This document shows, in pieces, positions 8,804-63,807 of a stretch of DNA of 64,000 bases; position 1 is the first letter of the stretch, and each line of letters begins with the position of its first letter. The stretch lies in NCBI RefSeq assembly GCF_017744255.1, contig NZ_JAGHQP010000006.1, forward strand, positions 1 to 64,000. The letters run 5' to 3'. The notes under the pieces were generated by a model. The model searched no databases and was not told where the DNA came from. It saw only the letters and a list, made by a program, of their open reading frames with translations. The translations under genes were made by a program, and so were the position numbers. This DNA is from Brevundimonas sp. A19_0 (GTDB taxonomy: Bacteria; Pseudomonadota; Alphaproteobacteria; Caulobacterales; Caulobacteraceae).

Positions 8804-8804
8804 G

Positions 8805-9904: not shown

Positions 9905-9986
9905 TCCACAGCCCCCGCCAATCCGTCCCCGGCCAAGCGGGACACCCCCCTCACGCCCGCGCGCTGCATCGGTTACACGTTAACCA

Positions 9987-38513: not shown

Positions 38514-39001
38514 GGTTGCGCCCCACTCCCCGTAAATCGCGTCGGTTTTGCAAGCAACGTCAGAGTCTTGCGGGCTATCCGCGACTTTCTTGCGGCCTTG
38601 GATTGGGACATCCGTTCGTGTGGGCGGCATCGCTTGCGGCCGGTCCCGCCGGCGCCTAAACGGTCCCGGTCGGGCGCCGTGAGATAGGCGCGGGGCTGGA
38701 GCCGGGGTTCGCCAATGGCGGAGGCGGCGCTCCGCGGCGAAGTAGCGGGCCTCTCGATCGCAGAGGATTCCAACGCCCGACCCCTCCGCCTTGCGTGTTG
38801 ATTCCATTTGATTCATGGTCGTCGAGTCGGCGTTCGCGCCGATAGGGGCTTGGAATCCCCTGTGCGATATCAAAACCCAACGACCCGCGCCCGCGCGGTC
38901 GTCGCTTGTCCAGCGGCCGAGCCCGTGCGTCGCGCGGCACTGATCGGCTGAGCTGTCGCGCCTGCGGATTCCGGCCTCGCCCTTGTGGCCGGAGGAGCGT
39001 G
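38514..39001. other. long noncoding divergent region
   Basis: About 490 bases between the solo LuxR gene and the sigma-factor gene hold no reading frame with a recognised family or good ribosome-binding site until the GGAGGAG before the sigma gene. It likely carries the promoters of both genes. No strong palindrome was found by eye. Confidence 0.5.
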
Positions 39002-39490
39002 GTGAGCAACGCCAAGGAGCTGGAGGCGGGGGCAGCGGACAGGCTGGACAGCCTGTTTCGCCGCTATGCGGCCTGGCTCGACGGGCGTCTGCGGAGTCGG
39101 CTCGGGCCGGACGAGGCGGCCGACATGGTCCAGGAGACCTATCTGCGGATCGCTCCCTATGACGGCGAGAGCATCCGCCACCCCAAGGCGTTCCTGCTGC
39201 GGGTCGCGCTGAACCTCGTGCGGGACGACCGTCGCCGGCAGGCGCGCCGCGCCAGGGTCCTCGACGAGCAACCGGCGGCCGAAGGCGAGGCCGCCTCGCA
39301 GCTCGACCAGGTCCTGCTCAAGCAGATCGTCCTGACGATGCCGCCGCTCTACCGCGACATCTTCGTGTTGAACCGCTTTGGCGGTATGACTTACCCGGAG
39401 ATCGCCCGCGCGCGAGGGATCAGCGTCAAGACCGTCGAGTGGCGGATGTCGAAGGCGCTCGAACATTGCGCGTCGCGGCTGGACGTTTAG
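39002..39490 (+). CDS. FecI-like ECF sigma factor
   Basis: A 162-residue ECF sigma factor of the iron-starvation/FecI type. Region 2: LDSLFRRYAAWLDGRLRSRLGPDEAADMVQETYLRI; region 4: MPPLYRDIFVLNRFGGMTYPEIARARGISVKTVEWRMSKALEHC. The GTG at 39002 follows GGAGGAGC. It is paired with a FecR-like gene 7 bases downstream and a TonB receptor with a signalling domain, so ligand binding outside the cell probably turns on the receptor/isopeptidase genes. Confidence 0.9.
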   Translation: MSNAKELEAGAADRLDSLFRRYAAWLDGRLRSRLGPDEAADMVQETYLRIAPYDGESIRHPKAFLLRVALNLVRDDRRRQARRARVLDEQPAAEGEAASQLDQVLLKQIVLTMPPLYRDIFVLNRFGGMTYPEIARARGISVKTVEWRMSKALEHCASRLDV

Positions 39491-39497: not shown

Positions 39498-40487
39498 ATG
39501 ATGACGGTCGACGAGGACGCCGACATCCGACGCAAGGAGACCGCTTCCTGGTTCGCACGCCTGAACCAGCGCAAGGTCTCGGCCGCCGATATCAAGGCCT
39601 TCAGCGCCTGGCGGCGCGTTCCCGGGAACGCCGAGGCCTACGACCGCATGCAGCCGGTGTGGGAGGCGACCGAGACCCTGGCCGACGATCCGGAGATCGC
39701 CGCCCTGACCAGACAGGCCAGGGACGCCGCTTCTGCGCCCGCCCGCGCGCGGGCGCTGTTCTCGGACGTCCTCAAGCCGCTGGGCGCGGCCGGCGCCCTG
39801 GTCGCCGTCCTGGTCGTCGGCCTGGGGGTCTGGAGCCTGTCCCGACCAACCTCGTACGACACCGCGATCGGCGAGCAGCGCACGGTGCGGCTCGACGACG
39901 GCTCGCGGATCACGCTCGACACCGCTTCGAAGGTCGAGGTGCGCCTCGGCCGCGACCGGCGATCGGTCGCGCTGGTCGAGGGCCAGGCCCTCTTCGACGT
40001 CGAGGGCGACGCGGACCGGCCGTTCGTGGTCACCGCCGGCGACACCCGGGTGACGGCGCTGGGAACGCGCTTCGACGTACGCCGTGTCGGCTCAGGCGCC
40101 CGGGTCGTCCTCATCGAGGGTCGCGTCGCCGTGCGGGACGGACAAGGGTCCGACCGCGCCTGGTCGCTGGCGCCGGGACAGCAGGTCCTGACCGCCGCGC
40201 CGCGCCCGGCGGTCGCCGCCGTCGACGTGCCGACCGCGACCAGCTGGGCCAGCGGCCGCCTGACTTTCCGGGAGACGCCGATCGGCGAGGCCGTCGCCGA
40301 GGTAAACCGCTACAGTCCGCGCCCGATCGAACTGGAGGCGACCGAGTTCGCGGCCATTCGGGTGAGCGGCGTCTTCAACACCGGCGACGTCGACGGCTTC
40401 GTGGCTGCCCTGACCGATCTCTATCCTCTGCGGGCGACCCGCTCGGCGGACGGGACCATCGTCCTCTCGGACAGCGCCGCAAAATAA
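39498..40487 (+). CDS. FecR-like anti-sigma regulator
   Basis: A 329-residue inner-membrane regulator. The N-terminal DUF4880-type cytoplasmic domain contains KETASWFARLNQRKVSAADIKAFSAWRRVPGNAEAYDRM; one transmembrane segment is near residues 94-112 (LGAAGALVAVLVVGLGVWSL); the periplasmic FecR domain has RTVRLDDGSRITLDTASKV and VTALGTRFDVR. It would receive the signal from the STN domain of the receptor and control the sigma factor upstream. Order sigma-FecR-receptor is canonical. Confidence 0.93.
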   Translation: MMTVDEDADIRRKETASWFARLNQRKVSAADIKAFSAWRRVPGNAEAYDRMQPVWEATETLADDPEIAALTRQARDAASAPARARALFSDVLKPLGAAGALVAVLVVGLGVWSLSRPTSYDTAIGEQRTVRLDDGSRITLDTASKVEVRLGRDRRSVALVEGQALFDVEGDADRPFVVTAGDTRVTALGTRFDVRRVGSGARVVLIEGRVAVRDGQGSDRAWSLAPGQQVLTAAPRPAVAAVDVPTATSWASGRLTFRETPIGEAVAEVNRYSPRPIELEATEFAAIRVSGVFNTGDVDGFVAALTDLYPLRATRSADGTIVLSDSAAK

Positions 40488-40573: not shown

Positions 40574-43540
40574 ATGCGTAACGGTTTCAGTTCATCCGCG
40601 CTGGCCGCGTTGCTTTTGGCCTCGGCGCCGCCCGCCTTCGCACAGGCCGCCCAGGAGGCCGCGCGGCGCTACGAGATCGCGCCCGGCCCGTTGGACCAGG
40701 CTTTGCCCGCCTTCGCCCGGCAGAGCGGTCTGCAGATCCTCTACCCCGCCGCCCTCGTCGCCGGGCGCCGGTCTCCTGGGCTGAACGGGACCCACACCCC
40801 CGAAGCGGCCCTGGCCGCGGTGCTGAAGGACTCGGGCCTCGCCTGGCGCCGCAGCCGGCCGAACGTCTTCGTCGTCTACGACCCGGCCGCGCGGGCCGAG
40901 GCCGGCGCGCCGGAGCCCGAGCCCACCACGCTGGACGAGGTGGTGGTGACCGGCAGCCTGATCCGGGGGGTGGCCGACGGCCCCTCCCCGGTCGTCATGG
41001 TCACGCGCGAGGACATTGATCGCAGCGGCTACGCGACCGTGGCCCAGGCGCTCGCGGCCCTGCCGCAAAATTTCGGCGGCACGGCCAACGAAGGCGCGCT
41101 ACAGAACGGCGCCGACCGCAGCGCCACCAACGGCACCTTCGCCTCGGGCGTCAATCTGCGGGGCCTGGGCAGCGACGCCACCCTGGTGCTGATCAACGGC
41201 CGCCGCATGGCCGGCACCGGGGCCATGGGCGACTTCGCCGACGTCTCGACCCTGCCGACCAGCGCCATCAAGCGCATCGACGTGCTGCTGGACGGGGCCT
41301 CGGCCCTGTACGGCGCCGACGCGGTCGGCGGGGTCGTCAACATCATCCTGCGCGACGACTACGAGGGCGCCGAGACCCGGGTCCGGCTCGGCCAGACCGC
41401 CGACGGGGCCAGCGACGAATACCAGTTCGGCCAGACCTTCGGCCGGCGCTGGTCATCCGGCGGCCTGCTGGGAACCTACGAATTCTACGAGCGCGGCGCC
41501 CTGCCCGTGTCGGAACGGCGCCTGGCCGGGGACGCGGACCTACGATGGCGCGGCGGCTCGGACCGGCGGCTCAACTACGCCAGCCCCGGCAACATCGTCG
41601 TCTTCGATCCCGTCAGCGGCGGCTACGTCTCGGCCTACGCCATCCCCGCCGGCCAGGACGGGACGGACCTGGAGCCCGGCGACTTCCTCGCCGGCCAGAC
41701 CAATCTGAGCAACCAGCGGCTCGGCATGAACGTCCTGCCGCGGCAAACCCGGCACAGCCTGTTCGCGGCGCTGCGGCAGGACCTGGGATCGCGGGTCGTG
41801 CTCACCGCCGACGCCCGCTACGGCCTGCGCGAGTACGAAACTGTCTCGACGCCGCTGGCCATCCTGCTGACGGTCAACGGCGGCAATCCCTGGTTCGTGT
41901 CTCCGACGGGGGCGAGTTCGCACACCATCGCCTATTCCTTCGAGAACGACCTGCCGAACCCCGAGATCACCGGCGAGGCGGAGAGCTTCGGCGCCTCGGT
42001 CGGGGTCAAGGTTGACCTCTTCGACGACTGGCGGCTTGACGCCTACATCGCCTACGCCTCGGAGGCGGGCGAGAACCGCACCCGCGGCACGCTGAACTCG
42101 ACCTTCCTGCGCGAGGCCCTGGGCGCCGTGGCCGACAACCCCGCCACCCCGTTCAGCGCCGCGCGCGACGGCTATTTCAACCCGTTCGGCGACGGCGGCG
42201 GCAGCCCGGCGGCGGTGCTCGACTTCATCAGCTCTGGCCGCACCGCGACCCTGAGCGAAACCGGCGTCGCCTCGGCCAACCTGCAGGTCGACGGGACCGT
42301 GCTCACCCTGCCCGGCGGCCCGCTCCGGCTCGCCGCCGGGCTCTCCTTTCGCGAGGAGACCTTCTGGCGCCGCAACGACAGCTTCACCTCGGGGGTGACG
42401 CCCACCACCGGCGTCCCCACGGACTCGAGCCGGCGGGTGGCAGCCGTATTCGGCGAGCTGCGCATCCCGCTGTTCGGGGCCGACAACCGCCGGCCCGGCT
42501 TCGAGCGGCTCGAGCTTTCGATGGCGGCCCGGTTCGAGGACTATGAGGACATCGGCCAGACGACCAGTCCCAAGATCGGCGTCGTCTGGGGCCCGACCGG
42601 AGAGCTGACCCTGCGCGCCAACTACGGCGCCTCCTACCGGGCGCCGGCCCTGCGCGAGCTCAACGACGCGGCGCGGGCCAGCCCGACCTTCCTGCCGCGC
42701 GGCTCGCAGCAGGTCCTGTCGATGATCCTCTACGGCGGCAACCCGGACCTGGAGCCGGAACAGGCCGACACCTGGACCCTGGGGGCGGAGTACCGGCCCG
42801 CCTCCGTCGACGGCCTGCGTCTCAGCGCCAACTGGTTCCGCACCGACTTCGACAACCGCATCGGCCAGCCGACCTTCGAGAACATCCTCATCGCCCTGAC
42901 CGACCCCGCCCTGTCGCCGTTCGTGCGGCTGGTCGATCCACTCAACAACGCCGATGACCGGGCCGCCCTCCAGGCCATCCTCGACCTGCCGACCACCGGC
43001 TTCGCCGACGCCTTTCCGGCGACCTCCTACGGGGCGATCGTCGACGCCCGCTACGTCAACACCGCCCGCGTCGAGGTCGAGGGGGTGGACGTCAGCGCCG
43101 GCTACGATTTCGAGGTCGGGGCCAACGCCTTCGACCTGAACCTGGCCTTCTCCTATCTCGGCCGGTTCGACAGCCAGGCCACGCCCAAGTCGGCGGCCGT
43201 CTCCCTGCGCAACCGCCCCAACTATCCGGTCGGGCTGCGCGGCCGGGGCACGCTGGCCTGGTCGCGCGGCGACTGGGGCCTGTCCTCCTCGGTCAACTAT
43301 GTCGATGGCTACGAAGACCTGGCCGGCGCCCGGATCGACCCCTGGGCCACCCTCGACCTGCAAGTCCGCTATGAGCCGCAGTCCGGCCCGCTGCAGGGCA
43401 CGACCATCGCCCTCAACGTCCAGAACGCCTTCGACCGCGACCCGCCCTTCTACAACGCCCCCGAGGGCATCGGTTACGACGCGGCCAACACCAACGTCAT
43501 CGGCCGCTTCATCTCGCTGCAGCTGACCCGGGCCTGGTGA
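40574..43540 (+). CDS. TonB-dependent receptor with STN signalling domain (lasso peptide locus)
   Basis: A 988-residue outer-membrane transducer. After a signal peptide (about residues 1-24) comes an STN domain (YEIAPGPLDQALPAFARQSGLQILYPAALVAGRR) that contacts FecR, then a TonB box-like TLDEVVVTG, the plug domain (VNLRGLGSDATLVLINGRRMAG) and a C-terminal beta-barrel ending in a terminal Trp. In astexin-type loci a receptor of this kind is thought to import lasso peptides for degradation. The isopeptidase start overlaps its stop by one base. Confidence 0.93.
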   Translation: MRNGFSSSALAALLLASAPPAFAQAAQEAARRYEIAPGPLDQALPAFARQSGLQILYPAALVAGRRSPGLNGTHTPEAALAAVLKDSGLAWRRSRPNVFVVYDPAARAEAGAPEPEPTTLDEVVVTGSLIRGVADGPSPVVMVTREDIDRSGYATVAQALAALPQNFGGTANEGALQNGADRSATNGTFASGVNLRGLGSDATLVLINGRRMAGTGAMGDFADVSTLPTSAIKRIDVLLDGASALYGADAVGGVVNIILRDDYEGAETRVRLGQTADGASDEYQFGQTFGRRWSSGGLLGTYEFYERGALPVSERRLAGDADLRWRGGSDRRLNYASPGNIVVFDPVSGGYVSAYAIPAGQDGTDLEPGDFLAGQTNLSNQRLGMNVLPRQTRHSLFAALRQDLGSRVVLTADARYGLREYETVSTPLAILLTVNGGNPWFVSPTGASSHTIAYSFENDLPNPEITGEAESFGASVGVKVDLFDDWRLDAYIAYASEAGENRTRGTLNSTFLREALGAVADNPATPFSAARDGYFNPFGDGGGSPAAVLDFISSGRTATLSETGVASANLQVDGTVLTLPGGPLRLAAGLSFREETFWRRNDSFTSGVTPTTGVPTDSSRRVAAVFGELRIPLFGADNRRPGFERLELSMAARFEDYEDIGQTTSPKIGVVWGPTGELTLRANYGASYRAPALRELNDAARASPTFLPRGSQQVLSMILYGGNPDLEPEQADTWTLGAEYRPASVDGLRLSANWFRTDFDNRIGQPTFENILIALTDPALSPFVRLVDPLNNADDRAALQAILDLPTTGFADAFPATSYGAIVDARYVNTARVEVEGVDVSAGYDFEVGANAFDLNLAFSYLGRFDSQATPKSAAVSLRNRPNYPVGLRGRGTLAWSRGDWGLSSSVNYVDGYEDLAGARIDPWATLDLQVRYEPQSGPLQGTTIALNVQNAFDRDPPFYNAPEGIGYDAANTNVIGRFISLQLTRAW

Positions 43541-45993
43541 TGCGCCGGATAGTGGGTTGCGGCCTGGCCGTCGCGCTGCTGGCGACGGCCGGACCGGTCA
43601 TGGGCCAGGCGCCGGCGCCGGTCATCCTCGAGGCCCTGCTGGACCAGGAGAGCCTCGGGTCGGTGCGGATCAGCCCGAACGGGCGCTGGATCGTGGTCGA
43701 GCGCCGGGCCGCCTGGTCGGCGGCGGCCACCTACCGCTTCGGGCTGATGACCCCGCATCTGCTCAGCGGGCTGGAGGTGCATACGCCGGCCGGCGACCTG
43801 GTGCGCCGACTGGAGGACCCGGGCCACGCCAACGGCTACGTCTCCGGGCCCTTCTCGCCCAGCGGCGAGCTGATGCTGGTCGTCCGCCTGCGCGAGACCG
43901 CCCGCACCCTGGGGGTCATGACCCTGGCCACCGGCGAGGTGCGCTGGCTGCCGCTGACCCCGGAGTTCACCGAGTTGGGCCGCACCGTCGCCTGGCGTTC
44001 GGAGACGCAGCTGGTGGCCATCGCCCGTCCGGACGGCGACCTGCCGCTGGTGTATCGCCTCGGCGCCCAGACCGAGGCGCGCAAGACGGGGCTGTGGCGG
44101 GCCTTCGCCGCCGGCCACGCACCGTCCGCCGTGGTCATTCCCAGCGGCCCGGCCCGCGACAGCCGCGAACGGTCGACCGCGCCGCGGCTGGTCCTCTACG
44201 ACCTCGCCGGCGGCGAGGAGCGGGTGCTGGCGCGCGGCGAGCTGTTCGACCTGGAGCTCTCGCCGGACGGCGGCGCCGTCGCGGCCCTGCTCAACGCCGA
44301 GGACCTGCAGGCGGGCGGAGAGACGCCGGTCGATGTCGGCACGCCGAGCCGGCGGCGACGCCTGCTGCTCATCGATCTCGACCGGGGCGCGGCCGTCGAG
44401 CCCCTGCCCGATCAGGACTTCCTCTCGCACCTGCTGTCCTGGTCGCCGGATTCCCGCCGGCTGATCGCCTTCGCCCGCGACGCCGGGTCCCTCTGGGGCG
44501 AGGGCCGCTTCTGGATCCTCGATCGCCGCGGGTCGGCCGAACCCCTCCGGCTGGGCGAGGCCCGCCCCTGGCTCGACGCCGAGGTCGGCCGGATCCCCAT
44601 CGCCCGCGCTGGCTGGAGCGCGGGGCGGCCGGTGGCGCAGGTCCGCACCGCCGCGGGCCGCAGGGTCTGGCTTCGCGCCGCCCCCGGGTCCGTCTCGGTC
44701 CCGGTCCTCGAGCCGCGCGAGACCCTGGTCGAGGTCGCCGGACGCACCTGGATCGAGCGCGCCGCCGGCCTGCACTCCTTCGTCGCCGACCCGACCCTGC
44801 CCGTCCTGCCGGGCCGGCTGTGGGACCGCGAACGGGCGGCGGACGGCGGCAGCCGGCAGGGCTGGAACCCGGACGGCGTCCAGCGGGGCCGGCGCGGCCT
44901 GGTCGGTCCGGACGGCTGCGTGACCCGGCCGGCGGTTCCCGCGGCGCCGAGCTGCCCCGCGCCGCTGTCGGCCGACGAAACCCTGGTCGCCGTCAGCCCG
45001 ACGCGGGACTTTCTGATCGCCCAGCGGCGAACCCCGGGCGGATCGACCGCCCTGCGCCTGCACGCGCTGGACGGCGCGCGCGAGTTGGCCACCGTCAACG
45101 CCGCCTTCGACGCCCTGGCCTGGGGGACGATCACGCCCATCGCCCATACGGGCCCCGAGGGCCAGGCCCTGACCAGCTGGCTGCTGCTGCCGCCCGGCGC
45201 CGCGCCGGGCGACAGGCTTCCGGTGGTCGTGATCGTCTATCCCGGCGCGGCCTACGCCGCCGCCCCGGCCTGGCTGCGCCCCGGCGGCGAGCGTCTGCAC
45301 ATCAATCCGTCGGTGCTGGCCGCCGCCGGCTACGCCGTCCTCGTGCCGAGCCTGCCCAAGCCCGCCGGCGCCGGTCCCAGGTTGGACGACCTGGCCGACC
45401 GGATCGGGGCGATCGTCGACGCCGCCGCCCTCCAGGCCCCCATCGACCCGACCCGGGTCGGCCTCGTCGGTCACAGCTACGGCGGCTACGGGGTGCTGCT
45501 GGCCGCCTCCCAGAGCGACCGGTTCCGGGCGGTGGCGGCGGCGGCCGGCTACGCCGACCTGTCGCGAGTCTACGCCCTGCCGCCCCACTTCCTGGTCTCG
45601 CCCGACGATGGCGTGCCGATCAACGCCCTGGTCGGCTGGGCCGAGACCGGCCAGGGCGCGATCGGGGCCTCGCTGCCCGACCAGCCCCAGGCCTATGTCG
45701 CGGGCAGCCCGCTATACCTCGCCAGCAGGATCCGCACGCCGACGCTGCTCATCGAGGGCGACCTCGATCCCGCCGGCGCCGACGTGCTGTTCGGCGTCCT
45801 CTACCGGCTCGGCCGGGAGGCGGCGCTGGTCACCTACGCCGGCGAGGGTCATGTCTTCGTCAGCCCGGCCAACCTGCGTGACCTGCACGCCCGCATCCTG
45901 GATTGGCTCGATCGCCATGTGCGCCCGGCGGATGTCGGCGATCCGCGCCTGCCAGCGCCGGGCCCAGACCTCCAGCACGGCGCCGACCAGTAG
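43540..45993 (+). CDS. lasso peptide isopeptidase-like S9 serine peptidase
   Basis: An 817-residue prolyl-oligopeptidase-type (S9) protein. A signal peptide (about residues 1-24, ending MGQ) is followed by a beta-propeller-like region and an alpha/beta hydrolase domain: nucleophile Ser in GHSYGGYG (about residue 646), Asp in IEGDLDPAG (about 742), His in AGEGHVFVSP (about 769). In astexin-type clusters such enzymes (AtxE family) cut the isopeptide bond of a threaded lasso peptide. The ATG at 43540 overlaps the receptor stop; a GTG is three bases upstream. Its 3' end overlaps the cyclase gene antisense. Assignment as isopeptidase rests mainly on context. Confidence 0.88.
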   Translation: MRRIVGCGLAVALLATAGPVMGQAPAPVILEALLDQESLGSVRISPNGRWIVVERRAAWSAAATYRFGLMTPHLLSGLEVHTPAGDLVRRLEDPGHANGYVSGPFSPSGELMLVVRLRETARTLGVMTLATGEVRWLPLTPEFTELGRTVAWRSETQLVAIARPDGDLPLVYRLGAQTEARKTGLWRAFAAGHAPSAVVIPSGPARDSRERSTAPRLVLYDLAGGEERVLARGELFDLELSPDGGAVAALLNAEDLQAGGETPVDVGTPSRRRRLLLIDLDRGAAVEPLPDQDFLSHLLSWSPDSRRLIAFARDAGSLWGEGRFWILDRRGSAEPLRLGEARPWLDAEVGRIPIARAGWSAGRPVAQVRTAAGRRVWLRAAPGSVSVPVLEPRETLVEVAGRTWIERAAGLHSFVADPTLPVLPGRLWDRERAADGGSRQGWNPDGVQRGRRGLVGPDGCVTRPAVPAAPSCPAPLSADETLVAVSPTRDFLIAQRRTPGGSTALRLHALDGARELATVNAAFDALAWGTITPIAHTGPEGQALTSWLLLPPGAAPGDRLPVVVIVYPGAAYAAAPAWLRPGGERLHINPSVLAAAGYAVLVPSLPKPAGAGPRLDDLADRIGAIVDAAALQAPIDPTRVGLVGHSYGGYGVLLAASQSDRFRAVAAAAGYADLSRVYALPPHFLVSPDDGVPINALVGWAETGQGAIGASLPDQPQAYVAGSPLYLASRIRTPTLLIEGDLDPAGADVLFGVLYRLGREAALVTYAGEGHVFVSPANLRDLHARILDWLDRHVRPADVGDPRLPAPGPDLQHGADQ

Positions 45994-47326
45994 CCGGTTG
46001 TAGCCGGGGCTCCAGATCAGGCGCGCCTCCGTCAGTTCGGCCTCGAGCGCCTTGCGGTCCAGCAGGCCGTGGGCGGCCTGAAGCCCGTCGAGCAGCAGCG
46101 GCGTCAGGGTCGGCAGGCTGGCGCGCGTCACCTGGCCGTAGAAATGGCTGAGGTCGCCCTTGCTGCGGCGCTCGACGATCATCGGCGGCAGGCGCGTGGC
46201 GAAGGCCTGCCGGGCCAGGCCCCGGTCCCGCACCCCGGCGATCAGCCGGTCGGCCGGAATGGCCAGGCAGTGCTCGGCCACCGGCTGGCTGAGGAAGGGG
46301 TGCAAGAGGTCGCCCGCGCGGGCGCGCAGGCAGTCGCCCCAGAACAGCTGGGCGTTGACGAACTGCCGCAGTTGCCCGGCCTTGGCCGGCGGCAGGTCGT
46401 CGACCTCCTCCAGCCACGGATGGCGGCGCGTCCCGGCGTCGGCCCGCTCGCCCGACGGGCCGCCGAGGGCGTAGCCAAGCACCGTCCAGGCCGAGTGCCG
46501 GGTCCAGCGCGCCACGGCGGCGATGAAGGCCGGCGACACCCCGGCCAGGCCCTCCCGGCGGCGGCGGTCGACGACTACGGCGGGGTTGGGCGCCTGGAAG
46601 AACACCGCGTCGCCGCCCTGGCCGGTGAGCAATCCGGTCGCCCGCCCTCGGCGCATCCGCCCGGACACCTCGATGTCGTAGGCCACATCGACGCCCGGCC
46701 CGGCAGAAGTCCGTGGGCCGCCAGACGGCCGCGGTCTCCGCCGCCTCGCCGATGACGCTGACCGCGCCCGGATTGACGGCGGTCAGGCCGCGCAGGGCCA
46801 GCCGGTCGCCGAGCAGTTCCGGCGTCCTGGCGATCTCGCCGAGCACCGGCCAGTCGATGGCGAGGTCGGCCGGCAGCAGGGCGTCGACCAGGCGCGGCGG
46901 CTCGCGGGCGGCGATCACCGCCCCGCCATGGCGCCACCAGACGCAGTCCAGGGCGCCGCTGGGATCACGCAGCAGGGCGAGGCGTCCCTCGTCGTCCCGC
47001 CAGACCAGGATGTATCGGCCCCAACCCGAGGCGACGGCGCCCCGGGCCAGGTCGGCCGGGCCGGCGCTGCGCGAGATCACCGTCGACAGGAAGCCATCGG
47101 TCCCCCGCCAGTCGCCGATCAGGAGGTGCTGGCGGCCGACCTGGCGGACGGCGTAGCGGGCCCGCGGCGCGAGCAGGACTTGGATTTCCTCGATCGGACC
47201 AAACGACCGCCAGCCCTCCCGCTCGAGGGCGGCCAGGACCCGGTCGAGCGCGCGTCGGTCGTCCTCGCCGGTGCGCCGCCGGTCGATCACCAGATAGCCG
47301 TTGTCGGCGGGACCGGGGACCTTCAT
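45712..47326 (-). pseudogene. degraded lasso cyclase (asparagine synthetase-like, C protein)
   Basis: Lasso cyclases activate an Asp/Glu side chain with ATP and close the macrolactam. The N-terminal glutamine-amidotransferase-like half (MKVPGPADNGYLVIDRR..WRPTDFCRAG) is in one frame; the C-terminal synthetase half (IEVSG then LLTGQGGDAVFFQ..WSPGYNRLLVG) is one base out of frame, with the shift near 46690-46715. Between the VSG of the expected VSGGLDSS ATP-loop and the GQGGD motif only about 11 residues remain where roughly 100 are expected, so the catalytic loop is deleted. The start overlaps the B gene stop (ATGA). The C-frame stop lies 281 bases inside the isopeptidase gene. Confidence 0.8.
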
Positions 47327-47952
47327 CGGCAGTAGATCGGCGTATAGGCCCAGAGCCGCTCGACATCGTCGTTGAGACAGACGTCGCCGGCCTGGACCCA
47401 GCAATGGGCGTTGAACGGCCAGAGGCGCACGCCGAACACCCAGTCGGCGGCCAGACCGCGGCGGCGCAGGAAGGCGATCAGCATGGCCGACCGCGGCAGG
47501 CATTCGCCTTCGACCGGGAGCCAGGGGCTGATCTTCCAGAACAGCCGCGCCGCCGCCAGCACCGCGTCGGGATCACGCGACAGGTCGCTCCGGGCCTCGG
47601 CGAGAGCCAGATAGGGGGCGATCCCCTGCCCCGCCCGCGCCCGACGGATATCGGCGACGACGCCGGCGGCGGCGAGCAGCGCCCGCGGTCCCGCCGGCTC
47701 GGCCAGGGGCTCATGGATGATCGATCTTGCGGCCGACGGCGGCGGCGTCCGGGTCGCGGGCGGCGGCTCGGCCGCCAGCAGCCCGGCCTCGCCCAGCGCC
47801 TCGGCCATCGGCCCGGGCGCGATCCCGCCTGCGGCGGTCAGGGCCGCCGCGCCGCCGGGCAGGCAAAGGTAGGCGTCGCCGGCGATGTCGAGCACCGCCA
47901 GGTCGGCCCCGATGGCGACGGCGTGGACGTCCGGTTTGAGGTGGCGGGTCAT
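47323..47952 (-). CDS. lasso leader peptidase with fused RRE (B protein)
   Basis: A 209-residue fusion of an N-terminal PqqD-like recognition element (residues about 1-65, with YLCLPGGAAALT) and a C-terminal transglutaminase-like cysteine protease. The catalytic triad fits C151 (GECLPRS), H183 (FNAHCWV) and D195 (CLNDD). It binds the precursor leader and cuts it before macrolactam formation. All catalytic residues are present, unlike the adjacent cyclase. It lies 57 bases downstream of the precursor gene. Confidence 0.9.
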   Translation of the reverse strand: MTRHLKPDVHAVAIGADLAVLDIAGDAYLCLPGGAAALTAAGGIAPGPMAEALGEAGLLAAEPPPATRTPPPSAARSIIHEPLAEPAGPRALLAAAGVVADIRRARAGQGIAPYLALAEARSDLSRDPDAVLAAARLFWKISPWLPVEGECLPRSAMLIAFLRRRGLAADWVFGVRLWPFNAHCWVQAGDVCLNDDVERLWAYTPIYCR

Positions 47953-48008: not shown

Positions 48009-48236
48009 TCAGCCCTGCTGCCAGAGCCGCACCGGGATCAGCTCGAAATCGCCGGTGGGCGAGTCGGCGCGGGTGGCCTGCTCGGCCGAGCCCAGCCGGA
48101 CGACGTCGGCGCGGACGCCGGTCGGCTCATAGAGACGGACCGGGATCAGCTCCATGTCGCCGGTGTGGGAATCGGCGCGGGTGTTGCGCCGGGCGGAGCC
48201 GAGCCCGATGAGGCGCGGCGTGGTCTGGGTGTTCAT
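48009..48236 (-). CDS. lasso peptide precursor with two tandem cores (A protein)
   Basis: A 75-residue precursor with an excellent AGGAGGT ribosome-binding site. It contains two copies, offset by 36 residues, of LGSA-xxx-TR followed by ADS-x-TGD-x-ELIPVRL (19 of 26 positions identical by hand). Each TR end puts Thr at position -2 of a core beginning with Ala, the usual lasso leader rule. Core 1 would be A21-D-S-H-T-G-D-M-E29..; core 2 A57-D-S-P-T-G-D-F-E65-LIPVRLWQQG to the C-terminus. Ring closure to Glu9 (9-residue ring) or Asp7 is possible in both. Leader peptidase and cyclase genes follow. Confidence 0.88.
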   Translation of the reverse strand: MNTQTTPRLIGLGSARRNTRADSHTGDMELIPVRLYEPTGVRADVVRLGSAEQATRADSPTGDFELIPVRLWQQG

Positions 48237-48306: not shown

Positions 48307-48921
48307 CTATATTCGCTCTATACTTTGACCCGACCGCCTCATGACTGCGAACACCGCCGGCGCGGCCAGCCGCCGACCGTCATGATAGGCGTCGACCTCG
48401 GCCCGCAATTCGGCGACACGGCCCGTCGCCAGCAGCCGCTCTTGCCGGGTGATCTGTTCGATGTCGGCGGGCCGAACCTCCCTCTCGAACGCCCGGATAG
48501 GGCGGAGCTGAAGCATGACCCGGCGGTGGGCGCGGGTCAGGATGTCGACGCCGGCGGCGGCCGCGATCGTCGCATAGAGGATTTCGAGGCGCAGATCGGG
48601 CGGCGACGGCGCCTCCGCAGGGCGCGAGGCAGCCGCCGGCGCGACGTCCAGCGCCCAGTGGGTCAGGCGGCGGTGCAATTCGTAGAGATCGGCGATGTCG
48701 GACGCCGTCGGGCTTGGCGCAAAATATCCGCGGCCCGGCCGATGCTCGATGACCCCTTCCCCGGCCAGCCGGGCCAGCGCTTCGCGCACCGGCGTGGGGC
48801 TGAGGCGCAGTTCCTCGGCCAGGGCGGTGGCGACGAGCGGTTCGCCCCAGCCGAAGCGGCCCGCCGCGGCGAAACCTGCCAGGGCGTTGAGGGCGCTGTG
48901 GTAGGGATCGCGATCCTTCAT
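48307..48921 (-). CDS. GntR-family regulator of the lasso locus
   Basis: A 204-residue FadR-type GntR regulator. The winged helix is ALAEELRLSPTPVREALARLAGEGVIEHRPGRGYFAPSP; the all-helical ligand domain follows (DIADLYELHRRLTHWAL). It lies upstream of the precursor gene by 70 bases on the same strand and may control the A-B-C genes. The ATG at 48921 precedes the conserved domain; an in-frame upstream start would add about 70 residues of doubtful sequence. Confidence 0.87.
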   Translation of the reverse strand: MKDRDPYHSALNALAGFAAAGRFGWGEPLVATALAEELRLSPTPVREALARLAGEGVIEHRPGRGYFAPSPTASDIADLYELHRRLTHWALDVAPAAASRPAEAPSPPDLRLEILYATIAAAAGVDILTRAHRRVMLQLRPIRAFEREVRPADIEQITRQERLLATGRVAELRAEVDAYHDGRRLAAPAVFAVMRRSGQSIERI

Positions 48922-49199
48922 CCCGCCCGCTCCCGGCCGCGGGGCATGAGGGCGGGAGGACGCGACTGTCGCGCCGGACCTGGCCCGCGGCGGGTCGGGC
49001 CCCGAGGGAATGCGGTATAGGACGCCGTTACGCAAGCTTTCGCGATGTATCCGCAGGTTCTTTGCGTCATGCCGCAAGGTTTTCGACACCGTTTCTTTGC
49101 CATCTTTCATTTGAGGCTCCGGCGCCGCATTTTTCAACCAGTAGGGGTGCGAGAACGGTAGTCTCGGCGGCCCCAGCCGGCAGGAGTGAAGTCGAGGTC

Positions 49200-50098: not shown

Positions 50099-50734
50099 AT
50101 GGAGTTCGCCTTGCTGGACCTCGGCCTCATCCTCAGCCTCGCCCAGGCCTGCGCGCCGCAGGTGGCGCCGCAGACCCTCGCCGCCGTCGCCTATGCGGAG
50201 AGCCGGTTCGACCCGCTCGCCATCGGCGTCAATCGGGGACCGCGGCCGGCCCGCCGACCCCGCGATCCGGCCGAGGCGGCCCGGGCGGCGCGCGCCCTCA
50301 TCGCCCGCGGCGCCAACCTCGACCTCGGCCTCGCCCAGATCAACAGCGCCAATCTCGGCTGGCTCGGGCTGTCGGTCGAGGACGCCTTCGACCCCTGCCG
50401 CAACCTGACCGCCGCCGGGCGGGTGCTGCAGGCGGGATATCGTCCCGCCTCGGCCAGCCCCGCCGACCGCCAGGTCGCGCTCCGGGCGGCGCTGTCCCGC
50501 TACAACACCGGCCATCCCGAGCGCGGCCTGCGCAACGGCTATGTGGCCCGCGTCGAACGCGCCGCCGTCCGTCTCGCCCTCGCGGCGCCCGGTCCCTCGC
50601 CGGAGCCGCCGCCCGCACCGCCCCTCCCTGAGCCGCCTCCGCCGCCGGCCTGGGACGTGTTCGCCCGCGCCCGGCTCAATCCGACCGTCGTCTTCGCCCC
50701 GGTCCCGTCCGAACCCTGGAGAGTCCTCCCATGA
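50099..50734 (+). CDS. virB1: VirB1-like lytic transglycosylase
   Basis: A 211-residue peptidoglycan hydrolase that opens the wall for the conjugation channel. The catalytic Glu lies in AAVAYAESRFDPLAIGVN; LGLAQINSANLGWLGLSVEDAFDPCRNLTAAGRVL is typical of the transglycosylase SLT fold. The C-terminal tail is proline-rich. It is the first gene of a continuous overlapping operon to 62.1 kb; its stop overlaps the pilin start by four bases. Confidence 0.92.
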   Translation: MEFALLDLGLILSLAQACAPQVAPQTLAAVAYAESRFDPLAIGVNRGPRPARRPRDPAEAARAARALIARGANLDLGLAQINSANLGWLGLSVEDAFDPCRNLTAAGRVLQAGYRPASASPADRQVALRAALSRYNTGHPERGLRNGYVARVERAAVRLALAAPGPSPEPPPAPPLPEPPPPPAWDVFARARLNPTVVFAPVPSEPWRVLP

Positions 50735-51033
50735 CCGTCCGCGTCTCCCGCGCGCGCCGCGCCGGCGCCGCCGGCGCCATCGCCCTCGCCAGCCTCGCGA
50801 TCGTCTCCGAGCCGGCCTTCGCCCAGGCCAATGTCGAGGGCCTGCTGCAGAACGTCGTCGACATGCTGACCGGCAACACCGCCCGCCTGCTGGCGGTGCT
50901 GGCGGTGGTGGTGGTCGGCATCCTGTGGATGTTCGGCCTGTTCGACCTGCGCCGCGCGGCCATCGTCATCCTCGGCATCATCGTCGTCTTCGGCGCCGCC
51001 GAGATCGTCAACCTGATCACCGGGGGCGGCTGA
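50731..51033 (+). CDS. virB2: VirB2/TrbC-like conjugal pilin
   Basis: A 100-residue prepilin with a signal peptide (about residues 1-32, ending A-F-A) and two hydrophobic helices (LLAVLAVVVVGILWMFGLFDL and AIVILGIIVVFGAAEIVNLI). This is the classic VirB2/TrbC pattern: a mature pilin of about 68 residues that polymerises into the conjugative pilus. Overlaps both neighbours by a few bases. Confidence 0.92.
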   Translation: MTVRVSRARRAGAAGAIALASLAIVSEPAFAQANVEGLLQNVVDMLTGNTARLLAVLAVVVVGILWMFGLFDLRRAAIVILGIIVVFGAAEIVNLITGGG

Positions 51034-51206
51034 TGACCGCCCTGACCTGGCTCCTCGTCACCGCCGCCGTCCTGCTGGGCGCCCTGAGCCTGATGCTGGC
51101 CCTGCGGCTGATCTCCCCGCAGCGCTTCGCCCAGGCCGTCGCCGCCGGCGCGCTCGGCCTGGCGGCCTGGACGCTGCCCCTGCTGCTGGACGCCGCCCAT
51201 GACTGA
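51033..51206 (+). CDS. small two-helix membrane protein inside the T4SS operon
   Basis: A 57-residue protein with two hydrophobic helices separated by SPQRFAQ. It is wedged between virB2 and virB3, overlapping both by one to eight bases, so it is almost certainly expressed with them. It is not one of the eleven canonical VirB proteins. No family was recognised. Confidence 0.72.
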   Translation: MTALTWLLVTAAVLLGALSLMLALRLISPQRFAQAVAAGALGLAAWTLPLLLDAAHD

Positions 51207-51534
51207 GGAGCGTCTGATCGAGGACCCGCTGTTCCTGGCCTGCACCCGACCGGCCATGGTGCTGGGCGTGCCGATGGAGGCGATGGGCGTCAACGTCATC
51301 GTCTCGGGGCTGGTGTTCCTGGTCGGCGGCAGCCTGCTCTACCTGCTGGTCGCCCCCGTCCTCCACCTGGTCTTCCGCGCCATCTGCAAGGTCGACCACA
51401 ACGCCTTCCGGCTGCTGCTGGTCTTCGTCGACACCAAGGGGCGGGCCCGCAACGGCGGCCTGTGGGGCGGCTCCTCGCCCACGCCCCTGCCCCTGGTCCG
51501 CCGCTACCGCATCGGGGAGCTGGCCCGTGGCTGA
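51199..51534 (+). CDS. virB3: VirB3-like T4SS protein
   Basis: A 111-residue inner-membrane component. The conserved beginning is EERLIEDPLFLACTRPAMVLGVPMEAMGVNVIVSGLVFLVG, typical of VirB3/TrbD. Two transmembrane stretches lie at about residues 26-60. The C-terminal region ends YRIGELARG. It overlaps the virB4 start by eight bases. Confidence 0.93.
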   Translation: MTEERLIEDPLFLACTRPAMVLGVPMEAMGVNVIVSGLVFLVGGSLLYLLVAPVLHLVFRAICKVDHNAFRLLLVFVDTKGRARNGGLWGGSSPTPLPLVRRYRIGELARG

Positions 51535-53902
51535 GGCGAGCGTCTCCCCGGCCCGGCTGCGGCGCGAGGCGGACGTCCGCGCCAACCTGCCGTTCGCGCG
51601 CCATGTCGACGACCAGGTGGTGGCGCTGGACAGCGGCGCCCTGATGCTGAGCTTCCAGCTCGCCGGGGCCGCCTTCGAGACGGCGGACGCGCGCGATCTG
51701 AACGACTGGCACGTCAAGCTGAACCAGACCTGGCGCAACCTCGCCGACGACCGCCTGGCGGTGTGGCATCACATCGTCCGGCGCGAGGTGGCGGCCGAGC
51801 CGGCGACCGGCTTCCGCTCCGCCTTCGCCCGCGACCTGAACGCCGCCTACGAGGCCCGGCTCGCCGGCCGGCGGATGTTCGTCAACGAGCTGTTCGTCAC
51901 CCTGGTCCTGCACCCGGGCCGGGCGAGCAGCGAGCGCGCCGCGGCGATGATGGGGCGGCTGAAGGCGGCCCGGCGCGGCGGCCTCGAGATCGAGGCCGAG
52001 GCGGTCAAGCGGCTGCACGAGGCCGGCCGGGACCTGGCCCAATACCTCGCCCGCTACGCGCCCCGGCCGCTCGGCCTCTATGCGCGCGGCGGCCTGTGGT
52101 TCTCCGAACCGATGGAGGCCATGCGGCTGGTCCTCACCGGCCGTCCGGGTCGCGTGCCCATCGTCCGCGGCCACCTGGGCTCGGCCCTCTATACGGTGCG
52201 GGCGATCTTCGGCCGCGAGAGCCTGGAGCTGCGCGACGTCGGCGACGCCCGCTACGCCGGCGTCCTGGCGGTCAAGGAGTATCCGGCCTCGACCCGCCCG
52301 GGCCTGTGGGACGCCCTGCTCAGCGCGCCCTTCCCGTTCGTGATCAGCCAGTCCTTCGCCTTCCTATCCAAGGCCTCGGCCCGGGCGGTGATGGAGCGCA
52401 AGCAGAACCAGATGGTCTCGGCGCGCGACCGGGCCGCCTCGCAGATCGCCGGCCTCTCCGACGCGCTGGACGACCTGGTCAGCAACCGCTTCGTGATGGG
52501 CGAGCACCAGGCCTCGGTGCTGGTCTACGGGGCCGCGCCCGGGGACCTGGCCGATCACCTCTCGAAGGCCCGCGCCCTCCTGGCCGATTCCGGCCTGGTG
52601 GTGGCGCGCGAGGACCTCGGCCTGGAAGCGGCCTTCTGGGCGCAGTTCCCGGGAGCGTTCGCCCGACGCACCCGGCCGGCGGCCATCACCTCGCGCAACT
52701 TCGCCGCCCTGGCCCCGTTCCACGCCCATCCGGTCGGCCAGGCCCGCGGCAATCACTGGGGCCCGGCGGTCGCCCTGCTGCGCACCACGGCCGGCTCGCC
52801 GTTCTGGTTCAACTTCCACGTCGGGGACCTCGGCCACACCTTCATCTGCGGCCCCTCGGGTTCGGGCAAGACGGTGGTGCAGAGCTTCATGCTCGCCCAG
52901 CTCGAGCGGCTCGGCGCCCAGCAGCTGTTCGTCGACAAGGACCGCGGCGCCGAGCTCTTCGTACGCGCCTGCGGCGGGACCTATCTGACCCTGCGCAACG
53001 GCGAGCCGACCGGTTTCGCGCCGTTCAAGGCCCTGCCGCCCAGCCCCGGCAATCGCGCCTTCCTGGTCGGGCTGGTGCGGGCCCTGGTGGCCCACGACGG
53101 CGAGCCCCTGACCGTCATCCAGGCCCGCGCCATCGACGCCGGCGTGGCGGCGCTCGAAGCCCTGCCGCGCGAGCGCCGCTCGCTGACCGCCCTGCGCAGC
53201 GTGCTCGGTCAGGCCGACGGCGGCGGGATCGGGGCGCGGCTGGAGCGCTGGACCCGGGAGGGCCCGCTCGGCTGGGTGCTCGACAACGAGGACGACGCCC
53301 TGTCGCTGGACACCCGCTTCGCCGGCTTCGACCTGACCCAGGTGCTCGACCACGCCGAAATCCGCACCCCGGTGATGCTCTATCTGTTCCACCGCATCGC
53401 CGAGCGGGTCGACGGCCGCCGGCTGGTGCTGGACATCGACGAGTTCTGGAAGGCGCTCGGTGATCCGGCCTTCACCGACCTGGCCCAGGACGGGCTGAAG
53501 ACCTGGCGCAAGCAGAACGCCCTGATGGTGTTCGGCACCCAGTCGCCGGCCGATGCCCTGCGCTCGCCGATCGCCCACGCCATCCTCGAACAGTGCGCCA
53601 CCAAGATCTTCCTGCCCAACCCGCACGGCCAGGCGCGCGACTACGTCGAGGGCTTCGGCCTGACCGGCGAAGAGTTCCGGTTGATCCGCGATGTCCTGAC
53701 CCCGGAGTCGCATCGCTTCCTGGTCAAGCAGGGCCACGACAGCGTCGTGGTCGAGCTCGACCTGACAGGCCTCGACGACGAGTTGGCCATCCTCTCGGGC
53801 CGCAGCGAGACCGTGGCCCTGCTCGACCGCCTGCGCGCCGAACACGGCGACGACTACGCGCGCTGGCGCGACCCCTTCCATGCCCAAAGGAGGTTTCCAT
53901 GA
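51527..53902 (+). CDS. virB4: VirB4-like conjugation ATPase
   Basis: A 791-residue AAA+ ATPase that energises pilus assembly and DNA transfer. The Walker A is GPSGSGKTVVQ near residue 443 and the Walker B is LVLDIDEFWKAL near residue 633. The N-terminal CagE/TrbE/VirB4 domain spans about 1-380. It begins with a GTG inside the end of virB3. The length is normal for the family and all NTPase motifs are intact. Confidence 0.95.
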   Translation: MAEASVSPARLRREADVRANLPFARHVDDQVVALDSGALMLSFQLAGAAFETADARDLNDWHVKLNQTWRNLADDRLAVWHHIVRREVAAEPATGFRSAFARDLNAAYEARLAGRRMFVNELFVTLVLHPGRASSERAAAMMGRLKAARRGGLEIEAEAVKRLHEAGRDLAQYLARYAPRPLGLYARGGLWFSEPMEAMRLVLTGRPGRVPIVRGHLGSALYTVRAIFGRESLELRDVGDARYAGVLAVKEYPASTRPGLWDALLSAPFPFVISQSFAFLSKASARAVMERKQNQMVSARDRAASQIAGLSDALDDLVSNRFVMGEHQASVLVYGAAPGDLADHLSKARALLADSGLVVAREDLGLEAAFWAQFPGAFARRTRPAAITSRNFAALAPFHAHPVGQARGNHWGPAVALLRTTAGSPFWFNFHVGDLGHTFICGPSGSGKTVVQSFMLAQLERLGAQQLFVDKDRGAELFVRACGGTYLTLRNGEPTGFAPFKALPPSPGNRAFLVGLVRALVAHDGEPLTVIQARAIDAGVAALEALPRERRSLTALRSVLGQADGGGIGARLERWTREGPLGWVLDNEDDALSLDTRFAGFDLTQVLDHAEIRTPVMLYLFHRIAERVDGRRLVLDIDEFWKALGDPAFTDLAQDGLKTWRKQNALMVFGTQSPADALRSPIAHAILEQCATKIFLPNPHGQARDYVEGFGLTGEEFRLIRDVLTPESHRFLVKQGHDSVVVELDLTGLDDELAILSGRSETVALLDRLRAEHGDDYARWRDPFHAQRRFP

Positions 53903-54624
53903 AGACCCGACTGCTCGGCGCCGCCGGCGCCGCCCTGATCGTTCTGGCCGGCGTCCCGGCCCAGGCCCAGGAGATCGTCTATGACCCGATGGCCTACGCC
54001 CGAATGATCGAGGACGCGCGCACCGCCCTGGAACAGCTGGAGGCCCTCAAGGCCCAGATCGAACAGGGCGAGAAGCTGTACGACAGCCTCAACGACCTGT
54101 CGGACGTCAACGCCCTGGCCGGCAGGCTGGGCTTGCCGGAGGTCCGCAACCCCCTGCCGGACATGACCGCCCTGCGGGCCGCCGCCGACGGCGACCTGTC
54201 GGCGCTCGGCGCCCTGGCCGGGCGGGCCGAGGCCATCCGCCGCGAGACCCGGCTCTACACGCCGCCGGCCGGCGAAGCCGGCCCGGCCGAGGCCTACTAC
54301 CGCGACAGTCTCGAGCGCTCGGGCCTGCGCACGGCCCGCGACCTCGCGGTCGGCGAAGCGATCGGCCAGGCCGCCGACGCCCGGCTCGAGGGCCTGGAGA
54401 CCCTGCGCCGGGCGCTGGATGAGGCCCCCAACGCCCGGGCGGTGATGGACCTCGACGCCCGCCTGGCCGCCGAACAGGCGTTGATCCAGAACGAACAGGT
54501 GCGGCTGCAGGGCCTGGCCCTGATGCAGGCCGCCGAGGCGCGCCTGGAGGAGCAACGGGCCCGCGAACGGGCCGAGGCGGCCCGGGCGGCGCGGATGAGC
54601 GTCTACGAGCGGGCCTTCAAGTGA
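53899..54624 (+). CDS. virB5: VirB5-like minor pilin
   Basis: A 241-residue periplasmic protein with a signal peptide (about residues 1-22, ending A-Q-A-Q). The mature part is almost wholly helical (MIEDARTALEQLEALKAQIEQGEKLYDSL, and a long coiled coil at the end), as in VirB5/TrbJ, the pilus-tip adhesin. AAAGGAGG precedes the ATG, which overlaps the virB4 stop by four bases. Confidence 0.9.
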   Translation: MKTRLLGAAGAALIVLAGVPAQAQEIVYDPMAYARMIEDARTALEQLEALKAQIEQGEKLYDSLNDLSDVNALAGRLGLPEVRNPLPDMTALRAAADGDLSALGALAGRAEAIRRETRLYTPPAGEAGPAEAYYRDSLERSGLRTARDLAVGEAIGQAADARLEGLETLRRALDEAPNARAVMDLDARLAAEQALIQNEQVRLQGLALMQAAEARLEEQRARERAEAARAARMSVYERAFK

Positions 54625-54833
54625 GAGCCCTCCCGCTCGCCGTCCTGCTCCTGGGCGCCTGCTCGCCCGCCCCGCGCACGGCCGACGCCTTCGCCGCCGA
54701 CCCGGTCGCCGCCCGCGCGACCGTGGCCGCCTGCGACGCCGGCGAGCGCCGCGGCGACTGCGCGGCGGCGCGGGCGGGCCTCGCCGAAGCCCGCCGCCGC
54801 GAGCGCATGGCCGCCTACCGGCGGGCCTTCTGA
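54621..54833 (+). CDS. EexN/TrbK-like entry exclusion lipoprotein
   Basis: A 70-residue lipoprotein (lipobox L-G-A-C near residues 11-14) with CDAGERRGDCAAARAGLAEARRRERMAAYRRAF following. Small Cys-rich lipoproteins after VirB5, with the C-x(7)-C spacing seen here, are commonly EexN/TrbK entry-exclusion proteins that block redundant mating. The GTG start overlaps the virB5 stop. Confidence 0.7.
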   Translation: MRALPLAVLLLGACSPAPRTADAFAADPVAARATVAACDAGERRGDCAAARAGLAEARRRERMAAYRRAF

Positions 54834-54844
54834 AGGAGGCGGCG

Positions 54845-55768
54845 ATGCAGTTCCGGGTCTTCGAGCCGAGCTACGACTTCATCGACGCCCGGCTGAACGA
54901 CTTCCTCGGCGACCGGCTGGCCTCGGTCATCGCCCAGGTGGAAGGCCCGCTGCGTGTGGCCCTGGTCCTCTACATCGTGCTCTACGGCTACGCCATTTTC
55001 CGCGGCGCGATCAGCGAACCGATCATGGATTTCGCGATCCGCGGCATCAAGCTGGTGTTCATCTACCTCTTGGCCACCACCGCCGCCTACGGCGACTTCG
55101 TCACCCGGCCGCTGTTCACCGACCTGCCCAACGCCCTGACCGAGGCGATCAGCGGGGCCGGGACGCCCAGCGTCGGCGCGGCCTTCGACCAGTTCTTCGC
55201 CTATGCCGCCTACCTCGGCGAGAAGATCAGCCGCGACGCCTCCGCCTTCAATCCGGCCCCCTACGTCGTCTCGGCGGCAGTGTTCATCATCGGCGCCCTG
55301 GCCGCCGCGCTCGGCTTCGGGGTGGTGCTGGTCGCCAAGCTGGCCCTGGCCCTGCTGGTCACGCTCGGACCGATCTTCATCGCCTGCGCCCTGTTCGACG
55401 CCACCCGCCGCTTCTTCTTCGGCTGGCTGAGCCAGGCGGTGAACTACCTGATCCTGTTCGCCCTGATCATCGTCATCTTCCAGCTGGTGCTGTCGCTGGT
55501 GCGCGACCAGTGGGGGGCGATCGAGGGCGGCGACCCTATGATCGGCGGCCTGATCTTCATCGCCCTGTGCCTGCTCGGCGCGATCTTCTTCCTGCAGACC
55601 CCGGCCATCGCCGCCGGCATCGCCGGCGGGGCCAGCGCCGGCCTAGCCGACTTCGCCAACGCCGCCGCGCTGGGGACCAGCGGCTCCGGCCGCGCCGTCG
55701 GACCGCAGGAGGCCGGCCGCCAGCCGCCGCGCGGCGGCGGATCCATTCGACCCACGGGAGCCCGCTGA
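54845..55768 (+). CDS. virB6: VirB6-like polytopic channel protein
   Basis: A 307-residue inner-membrane protein with about six hydrophobic segments, including VALVLYIVLYGYAIFRG, LVFIYLLATTAAYG, VSAAVFIIGALAAALGFGVVLVAKLALALLVTLGPIFIACALF and YLILFALIIVIFQLVL. This matches VirB6/TrbL, the channel for DNA passage through the inner membrane. GGAGG lies just upstream. The C-terminal tail is Gly/Ala-rich. Confidence 0.92.
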   Translation: MQFRVFEPSYDFIDARLNDFLGDRLASVIAQVEGPLRVALVLYIVLYGYAIFRGAISEPIMDFAIRGIKLVFIYLLATTAAYGDFVTRPLFTDLPNALTEAISGAGTPSVGAAFDQFFAYAAYLGEKISRDASAFNPAPYVVSAAVFIIGALAAALGFGVVLVAKLALALLVTLGPIFIACALFDATRRFFFGWLSQAVNYLILFALIIVIFQLVLSLVRDQWGAIEGGDPMIGGLIFIALCLLGAIFFLQTPAIAAGIAGGASAGLADFANAAALGTSGSGRAVGPQEAGRQPPRGGGSIRPTGAR

Positions 55769-55992
55769 TGACCATCCCCCGCCTGCTCATCCTCGCCGCC
55801 GCCGCCACGGTCCTCGCCGGCTGCGCCAGCCTCGGTCGCGACGACGCCCGGGTCTGCGACGGCCGTCATCGCCGCCCGGCCAACCCGCACGGCTCGACGC
55901 TCGTCCCCGCCCCGGCGCCGGCCCAGCCGCAGCCGCCCGCGCCCGCGCCCGCACCCCCACCCTCGGCCTCGCTCGGCGGAGGCTGCGCATGA
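55768..55992 (+). CDS. VirB7-like T4SS lipoprotein
   Basis: A 74-residue lipoprotein with lipobox L-A-G-C near residues 16-19, followed by CDGRHRRPANPHGSTL and a Pro/Ala-rich tail. The CDG-x-RRPANP motif is typical of small lipoproteins encoded just before virB8 in alphaproteobacterial conjugation operons. It probably anchors VirB9 at the outer membrane. Overlaps neighbours by one and four bases. Confidence 0.8.
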   Translation: MTIPRLLILAAAATVLAGCASLGRDDARVCDGRHRRPANPHGSTLVPAPAPAQPQPPAPAPAPPPSASLGGGCA

Positions 55993-63739: not shown

Positions 63740-63749
63740 GGCGATTCTC

Positions 63750-63779: not shown

Positions 63780-63807
63780 CATTCAAGAACGGCCCGCGCC
63801 CCGCAGC

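Follow-up and report, generated by a model that had tools for sequence, protein, structure and literature searches.

Lasso precursors are described, in part of the text of PMC13352647, as a leader followed by a core, and a short gene of Brevundimonas sp. A19_0 raises the question of whether one precursor can serve several lasso peptides. The gene lies in a stretch of 64,000 nt (contig NZ_JAGHQP010000006.1, positions 1-64,000), hereafter the window, and is termed gene A (48009..48236, minus strand; 75 amino acids plus stop). Its translation of 75 residues holds two leader-core units offset by 36 residues, and the DNA carries an 81-nt repeat of 78% identity at a spacing of 108. All on the minus strand, the protein runs through leader 1 (RLIGLGSARRNTR, 48177..48215), core 1 (ADSHTGDMELIPVRLY, 48129..48176, with Ala1, Glu9 and Tyr16), a spacer that is weakly constrained by pN/pS (EPTGVRA, 48108..48128), internal leader 2 (DVVRLGSAEQATR, 48069..48107) and core 2 (ADSPTGDFELIPVRLWQQG, 48012..48068, with Ala1, Glu9 and Trp16). 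The units, at residues 8-36 and 44-72, have 19 of 29 residues in common; when unit 2 was shuffled 100,000 times, no shuffle reached this number (best shuffle, 10). Over residues 1-16, the two cores differ at positions 4 (H/P), 8 (M/F) and 16 (Y/W). A precursor search of the window's own genome gave one match at E 0.001. Translation, repeat and shuffle test agree on what a sequence-only reading of this DNA had proposed, namely two leader-core units 36 residues apart in a 75-residue protein, and the Thr-2, Ala1, Asp7 and Glu9 that it had assigned to each unit are all present in both.

The window precursor was used to search 390 Caulobacteraceae genomes, and 78 matched at E 0.1, 24 of them at E <=1.1e-6 and the rest at >=1e-3. 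Frames read in the 24 best-matching genomes gave two units in 15, three in seven and separate single-unit genes in two (G135 and G063, where the pair of units occurs as two separate single-unit genes). Instead of one leader and one core per precursor, the window gene has two units and 22 of the 390 genomes, the window's included, have two or three in one protein; because of this recurrence, the multi-unit precursor is a real, conserved family and no quirk of one genome. The sequence-only reading had staked its case on other genomes keeping the two-unit form, and since they do keep it, with three units in some, the proposal has survived this comparison. Members include Brevundimonas alba DSM 4736 (L033, with A at 8001-8225, B at 8280-8912, C at 8912-10693 and the unit 2 core ADHITGDFEQIPVRLWDQG), two Brevundimonas MAGs, Caulobacter sp. 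RI_161 (a MAG) and one Caulobacterales MAG. One of the 15 two-unit genomes (G049) has a frame break in the first leader.

Beyond Caulobacteraceae, the search for multi-core lasso precursors consisted of a class-wide unit profile and an order-wide cyclase search. The profile was run on a sample of 385 genomes from which other multi-unit genomes are absent, with the window as sole positive control, and returned only three partial matches (E 9e-4 to 4e-3) besides the window's two units. With the cyclase at E 1e-90, matches were obtained in 10 of 398 genomes, each of them a member of Caulobacteraceae, and no plasmid-borne relative was matched in 72,556 records. A cyclase (C) of the multi-unit clade is also present at L053 (G090) and L054 (G061) with no recognisable precursor, L054 being without a match to the leader peptidase B as well, and contig ends truncate L052, L055 and L056, which likewise hold clade cyclase copies. 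Upstream of the precursor-less cyclase in L053 (G090 C3) and L054 (G061 C77) lie virB-side genes; the G090 genome also carries a complete lasso cluster elsewhere.

Conservation within the family was assessed in 37 distinct units; 22 of the 24 genomes supplied them, and the other two were omitted as identical. The units were cut at TR before A, and agreement at T-2, R-1 and A1 is therefore by construction; as an independent anchor, [LIVM]G.A is followed by three residues and then TRA in 48 of 48 leader anchors (three other matches of the scan belong to C-terminal tails, and G049 lacks a whole first leader). In each of the 24 rows, the motif E[LQE][INV][PG] occurs at unit position 9 and at no other. 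Further, G-8 and A-6 are invariant over the 36 units with a whole leader, residue 12 is Pro in 35/37 distinct units, and residue 16 is always aromatic (Y 23, W 12, F 2) and is likely to be the steric lock. The units show the lasso-type arrangement of Thr-2, a small residue 1 and Asp/Glu at 7-9, with E9 in 37/37 and TRA in 48/48. The sequence-only reading had considered both Asp7 and Glu9 available for the ring. The second half of that proposal stands, Glu9 being invariant in the 37 distinct units, and the first does not: residue 7 is Asp in only eight of them, and Asp7 was rejected as the ring partner. Because E9 never varies and Asp7 is so infrequent, Glu9 is most likely the ring partner, i.e. 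an Ala1-Glu9 closure.

The genes around A are consistent with lasso synthesis. The leader peptidase B adjoins the precursor (47323..47952, minus strand) and comprises an N-terminal recognition-like domain fused to a cysteine protease domain (PF13471, 79.9 bits against a cut-off of 26; NF033537, 76.4 bits against 33). The structure model of B (pLDDT 94.8, 47 sequences) gives weak fold matches (best Z 5.9, best Foldseek E 0.069). Residues 3-62 match TbiB1, a lasso recognition protein with a lasso leader bound (5v1u_A), at Z 5.2 and 2.5 A over 58 residues, where unrelated ribosomal rows reach up to Z 4.5, and the C-terminal part matches fungal lectin protease domains (Z up to 5.9) and LapG (Z 4.6) with modest scores; a PDB sequence search with B returned no match. 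TbiB1 (5v1u, 5v1v) is a separate chain of 84-88 residues, whereas the corresponding domain is fused to the protease in B. Next is the lasso cyclase C (45712..47326, minus strand), which is disrupted, and converging on and overlapping its 3' end is an S9-family putative lasso isopeptidase (43537..45993, plus strand; PF00326). The latter reaches 75.2 bits with the Atxe2-family model NF033523, under the cut-off of 400, and its best PDB match is another S9 peptidase (8wt1, E 4.1e-12), with AtxE2 (5txc) at E 2.1e-6. Also on the plus strand are a TonB-dependent receptor with an STN domain (40574..43540), a FecR-type anti-sigma regulator (39498..40487; PF04773) and an ECF-type sigma factor with an uncertain start codon (38906..39490; PF04542, PF08281). 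Upstream of A lies a GntR-type regulator (48307..49137, minus strand; PF00392; start codon uncertain), homologues of which adjoin A in 21/21 relative loci compared, three of these being repeat fetches of the same locus.

The eight window proteins encoded between 38.9 and 49.1 kb were scanned with Pfam, and none of them is an ABC transporter. TonB receptors and sigma/FecR genes are usual companions of isopeptidase-type lasso clusters. The window gene layout corresponds to that of an isopeptidase-type proteobacterial lasso cluster. An isopeptidase in place of an ABC transporter is described for such proteobacterial clusters in parts of two sources (PMC7549694, PMC5067487). The astexin, caulosegnin and caulonodin clusters, like the window's, contain a precursor, a fused recognition-protease B, C and an S9 isopeptidase (putative in the window), with no ABC transporter among the genes tested; however, they have one core per precursor gene, whereas the window family has two or three leader-core units per protein.

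We consider it quite probable that gene A belongs to a type of multi-core lasso precursor in which each unit is matured to a separate lasso peptide, the window copy itself being probably unproductive. Each unit would consist of a 13-residue leader (xLIxLGSAxxxTR) and then a core that starts at Ala1, with the ring at Glu9 and the aromatic residue at 16. The N-terminal domain of B would bind each leader, the protease domain of B would cut after each TR, and C would join the new Ala1 amine to Glu9. Lasso 1 would be released as a 36-residue peptide whose C-terminal tail consists of the spacer and leader 2, a tail that proteases would later trim. For Brevundimonas alba, the calculated masses after loss of water are 2178.05 for unit 2, 3907.03 for the 36-residue form of unit 1 and 1757.87 for unit 1 trimmed to Tyr16. 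The two lassos could not stay joined, because ring 2 uses the Ala1 amine of core 2, which needs a cut there, and intact relatives would make two or three lassos. We infer the binding and cutting by B and the closure by C; what the sequences themselves show is the two units and how these are conserved, the purifying selection on leader 2, and the lasso genes alongside. The conserved penultimate Thr of the lasso leader is described as a recognition site in part of PMC7549694.

The disrupted cyclase bears on whether the window copy is active at all. Compared with L031, L032 and L033, each of which has C in one open frame, window C has no intact frame: 332 bp are missing at 46696/46697 and the frame is shifted. 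In relatives, the counterparts of the two open pieces of window C lie roughly 330-350 bp apart. The missing 332 bp covers the SGGLDS motif seen in the Brevundimonas alba protein, which we take to have a role in ATP binding, and in the alignment the deletion ends share GGGCG. The intact C of Brevundimonas alba matches PF00733, and curated lasso cyclase models are matched by C only far below their cut-offs. In the window's genome, no other cyclase was found at E 1e-15 among the 3 of 8 candidates scored. As its cyclase is broken, the window copy probably makes no lasso. That the cluster is decaying, with the precursor inert in this genome, is somewhat more probable than the opposite, given the frame-shifting deletion flanked by GGGCG and the outcome of the search for a second cyclase; against it, A, B and the isopeptidase gene have open frames, and an assembly error could account for the gap. 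The deletion is either a loss of lasso production in the strain or an assembly fault. Decay in the window is compatible with multi-core maturation in the family, because the 21 other multi-unit genomes are untouched by the window deletion.

How two units came to share a gene was approached through cyclase phylogeny and controls, the latter being 35 further Caulobacteraceae lasso loci with more distant cyclases, hand-picked from the matches listed. A motif scan near B in these controls flagged 61 ORFs, of which 13 were read as noise and 48, from 31/35 loci, as precursors. All 48 precursor-like ORFs are single-core, and in the sole control ORF with two motif matches the extra match precedes the likely start. 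The midpoint-rooted cyclase tree has 57 rows, namely 16 multi-unit, 2 separate-gene and 4 precursor-unreadable loci and the 35 controls; it omits five near-duplicate genomes and also the window, because window C is broken. The 16 multi-unit and 4 unreadable loci form one clade (support 100/100), the separate-gene pair L046/L047 joins it at 96/89, and nine Brevundimonas separate-gene loci join next at 99/96. A Tyr16 gene is followed by a Trp16 gene in 9/9 of these next-clade loci. In the fused precursors, non-last units have Tyr16 in 21/21 distinct cases, and last units have Trp16 in 11/14 and Tyr16 in three.

Because this Tyr16-then-Trp16 order is common to all nine next-clade loci and most fused precursors, gene A probably arose by fusion of adjacent single-core genes, one of the Tyr16 type and one of the Trp16 type. 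The signature is blurred in G118, G151 and G170, whose precursors end with Tyr16 rather than Trp16, and in the separate-gene pair of G135/G063, which has Phe16 in the first gene. Three-unit rows need two changes on the cyclase tree, which fits gain or loss of a third unit after the fusion. An in-frame tandem duplication would also yield such units and might be read from their likeness in the window's subclade (18-20/29 residues) and from the three relatives with Tyr16 in both units. However, we regard it as rather unlikely: the Tyr16-first and Trp16-last marks match separate genes in the same order in the next clade, G135/G063 hold the pair as two genes, and the likeness of units in the window's subclade may reflect local gene conversion. 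The three-unit forms, the likely gene-fusion origin and the loss of 332 bp with the SGGLDS motif from the window cyclase go beyond the sequence-only reading. In five Brevundimonas loci (L063, L065-L068), a third precursor gene lies nearest B and has Glu/Asp at core position 8, not 9; one B-C pair may therefore make two ring sizes.

Selection on the units was gauged by pN/pS, estimated from Nei-Gojobori counts in three subclades of three genomes each, in which the pairs are few, share branches and are not independent. Internal leader 2 gave 0.08, 0.32 and 0.07 in the three subclades, and leader 1 gave 0.61 and 0.69, with no change in the third. The spacer gave 2.22 in the window's subclade and 0.54 and 0.22 in the others; it is freer than leader 2 in 3/3 subclades, clearly so only in the window's. 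Values for the core 1 ring were 0.35, 1.01 and 0.20, and for core 1 residues 10-16 were 0.08, 0.12 and 0.00; the core 2 ring gave 0.30, 0.30 and 0.44, and core 2 residues 10-16 gave 0.37, 0.00 and 0.00. By these ratios, the internal leader is under purifying selection, and the second recognition-like segment that had been noticed between the cores is indeed conserved. The pN/pS values argue for maintenance of leader 2 and of both cores. Within the core, the rings are the most variable part in most cases. The sequence-only reading had taken ring-clustered substitutions to suggest selection for diversity; the rings are indeed more variable than residues 10-16, but the ratios lend no support to positive selection in them, five of the six ring values lying at 0.20-0.44 and the remaining one at about 1.0.

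These ratios also bear on the idea that processing is confined to the C-terminal unit, with unit 1 either a relic of duplication or a leader extension that aids B/C binding. Leader 1 is less constrained than leader 2 in the two subclades where it varies, and extra tail residues usually reduce lasso yield according to part of PMC13352647, so core 1 might be made poorly; the same part of that source describes C-terminal extensions as well tolerated by astexin-1, pandonodin and others. However, every precursor has E9 and an aromatic at position 16 in its core 1, the low pN/pS of its residues 10-16 indicates that unit 1 is no relic, and separate-gene relatives carry the Tyr16-type core as a gene of its own, which together make C-terminal-only processing improbable. 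Translation of unit 2 from an internal start, which would make the gene two overlapping single-core precursors, could draw on an in-frame GTG between units in 8/19 precursors (at core Val13 in 3, Val21 in 5 and residue 25 in 1, the last in G101, which has the Val13 GTG too), but is very improbable and is unlikely as a general rule because 11/19 precursors, the window's included, have no in-frame ATG, GTG or TTG between units, ATG or TTG occurs there in 0/19, and the two GTG-bearing three-unit precursors have GTG in only one of two linkers each.

In the window, family matches to VirB2, VirB3, VirB4, VirB6, VirB8, a VirB9-like CagX and a coupling protein (50099-61446, plus strand) adjoin the lasso cluster. 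VirB genes lie beside 17/17 multi-unit loci read at length (the window and 16 relatives), 0/2 separate-gene sister loci and 12/35 controls, the control flanks being shorter. Among virB4 copies of the genus at least 70% identical to the window's, 44/48 have a listed lasso cyclase within 5 kb, the four exceptions having no listed cyclase on their contig, and 0/11 more distant genus virB4 matches are near one; conversely, 44/72 listed genus cyclase rows are linked to a close virB4. In 6/6 genomes tested, relaxase-family matches occur 8-11 kb from virB4, on its flank opposite the lasso genes (in the window's genome at G000:C44:64210-64482). Tyrosine recombinases, one a partial match, lie 42-58 kb out on the relaxase side and face the T4SS in 6/6 genomes, though such recombinases are common, at 4 to 12 per genome. 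On the strength of the virB4 linkage and the relaxase and recombinase matches, the lasso cluster seems to be cargo of one conjugative-element family, and such carriage may explain why a precursor 96% identical to the window's is found in a Caulobacter-labelled MAG. Beside the coupling-protein gene, the window also has an AbiEii-family gene (PF08843) and a DUF6088/AbiEi-like partner (62125-63811, minus strand); L100 has homologues of both near the same place, and L098 has a homologue of the partner there.

Precursors with several cores are familiar from other peptide classes. PatE-type cyanobactin precursors contain several cores, with own recognition sequences for each. Plesiocin and other graspetides whose cores are repeated are mentioned in part of PMC13003496. 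Both types resemble gene A in having several cores in one precursor and differ in chemistry and enzymes; in gene A, a full leader precedes each core, and because ring closure consumes the newly freed N-terminus, the cores have to be separated. Among lasso peptides, several products from one cluster are described in part of PMC13352647 for caulosegnins I-III, which come from three precursors. Brevunsin from Brevundimonas diminuta is a lasso peptide of the same genus (described in part of PMC7549694). A literature search that covered mostly non-subscription papers found no multi-core lasso precursor among the matches listed.

A more tentative picture, which we hold to be doubtful, is that the fused Tyr16 and Trp16 lasso polyprotein is a near-constant cargo of the conjugative element and provides the paired lassos in equal ratio, and that the leader-2 tail on lasso 1 could hold it on the recognition domain and so couple the two maturations. 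The existence of a natural precursor with repeated leader-core units suggests that the lasso enzymes can use a leader inside the chain and can act on a core followed by a long C-terminal extension. Genes of this type would offer a natural model for producing several lassos at a set ratio from a single gene, and tools built for one core per precursor could read only part of their products. Because two-unit, three-unit and separate-gene genomes occur side by side in the family, they make the change from a gene set to a polyprotein traceable.
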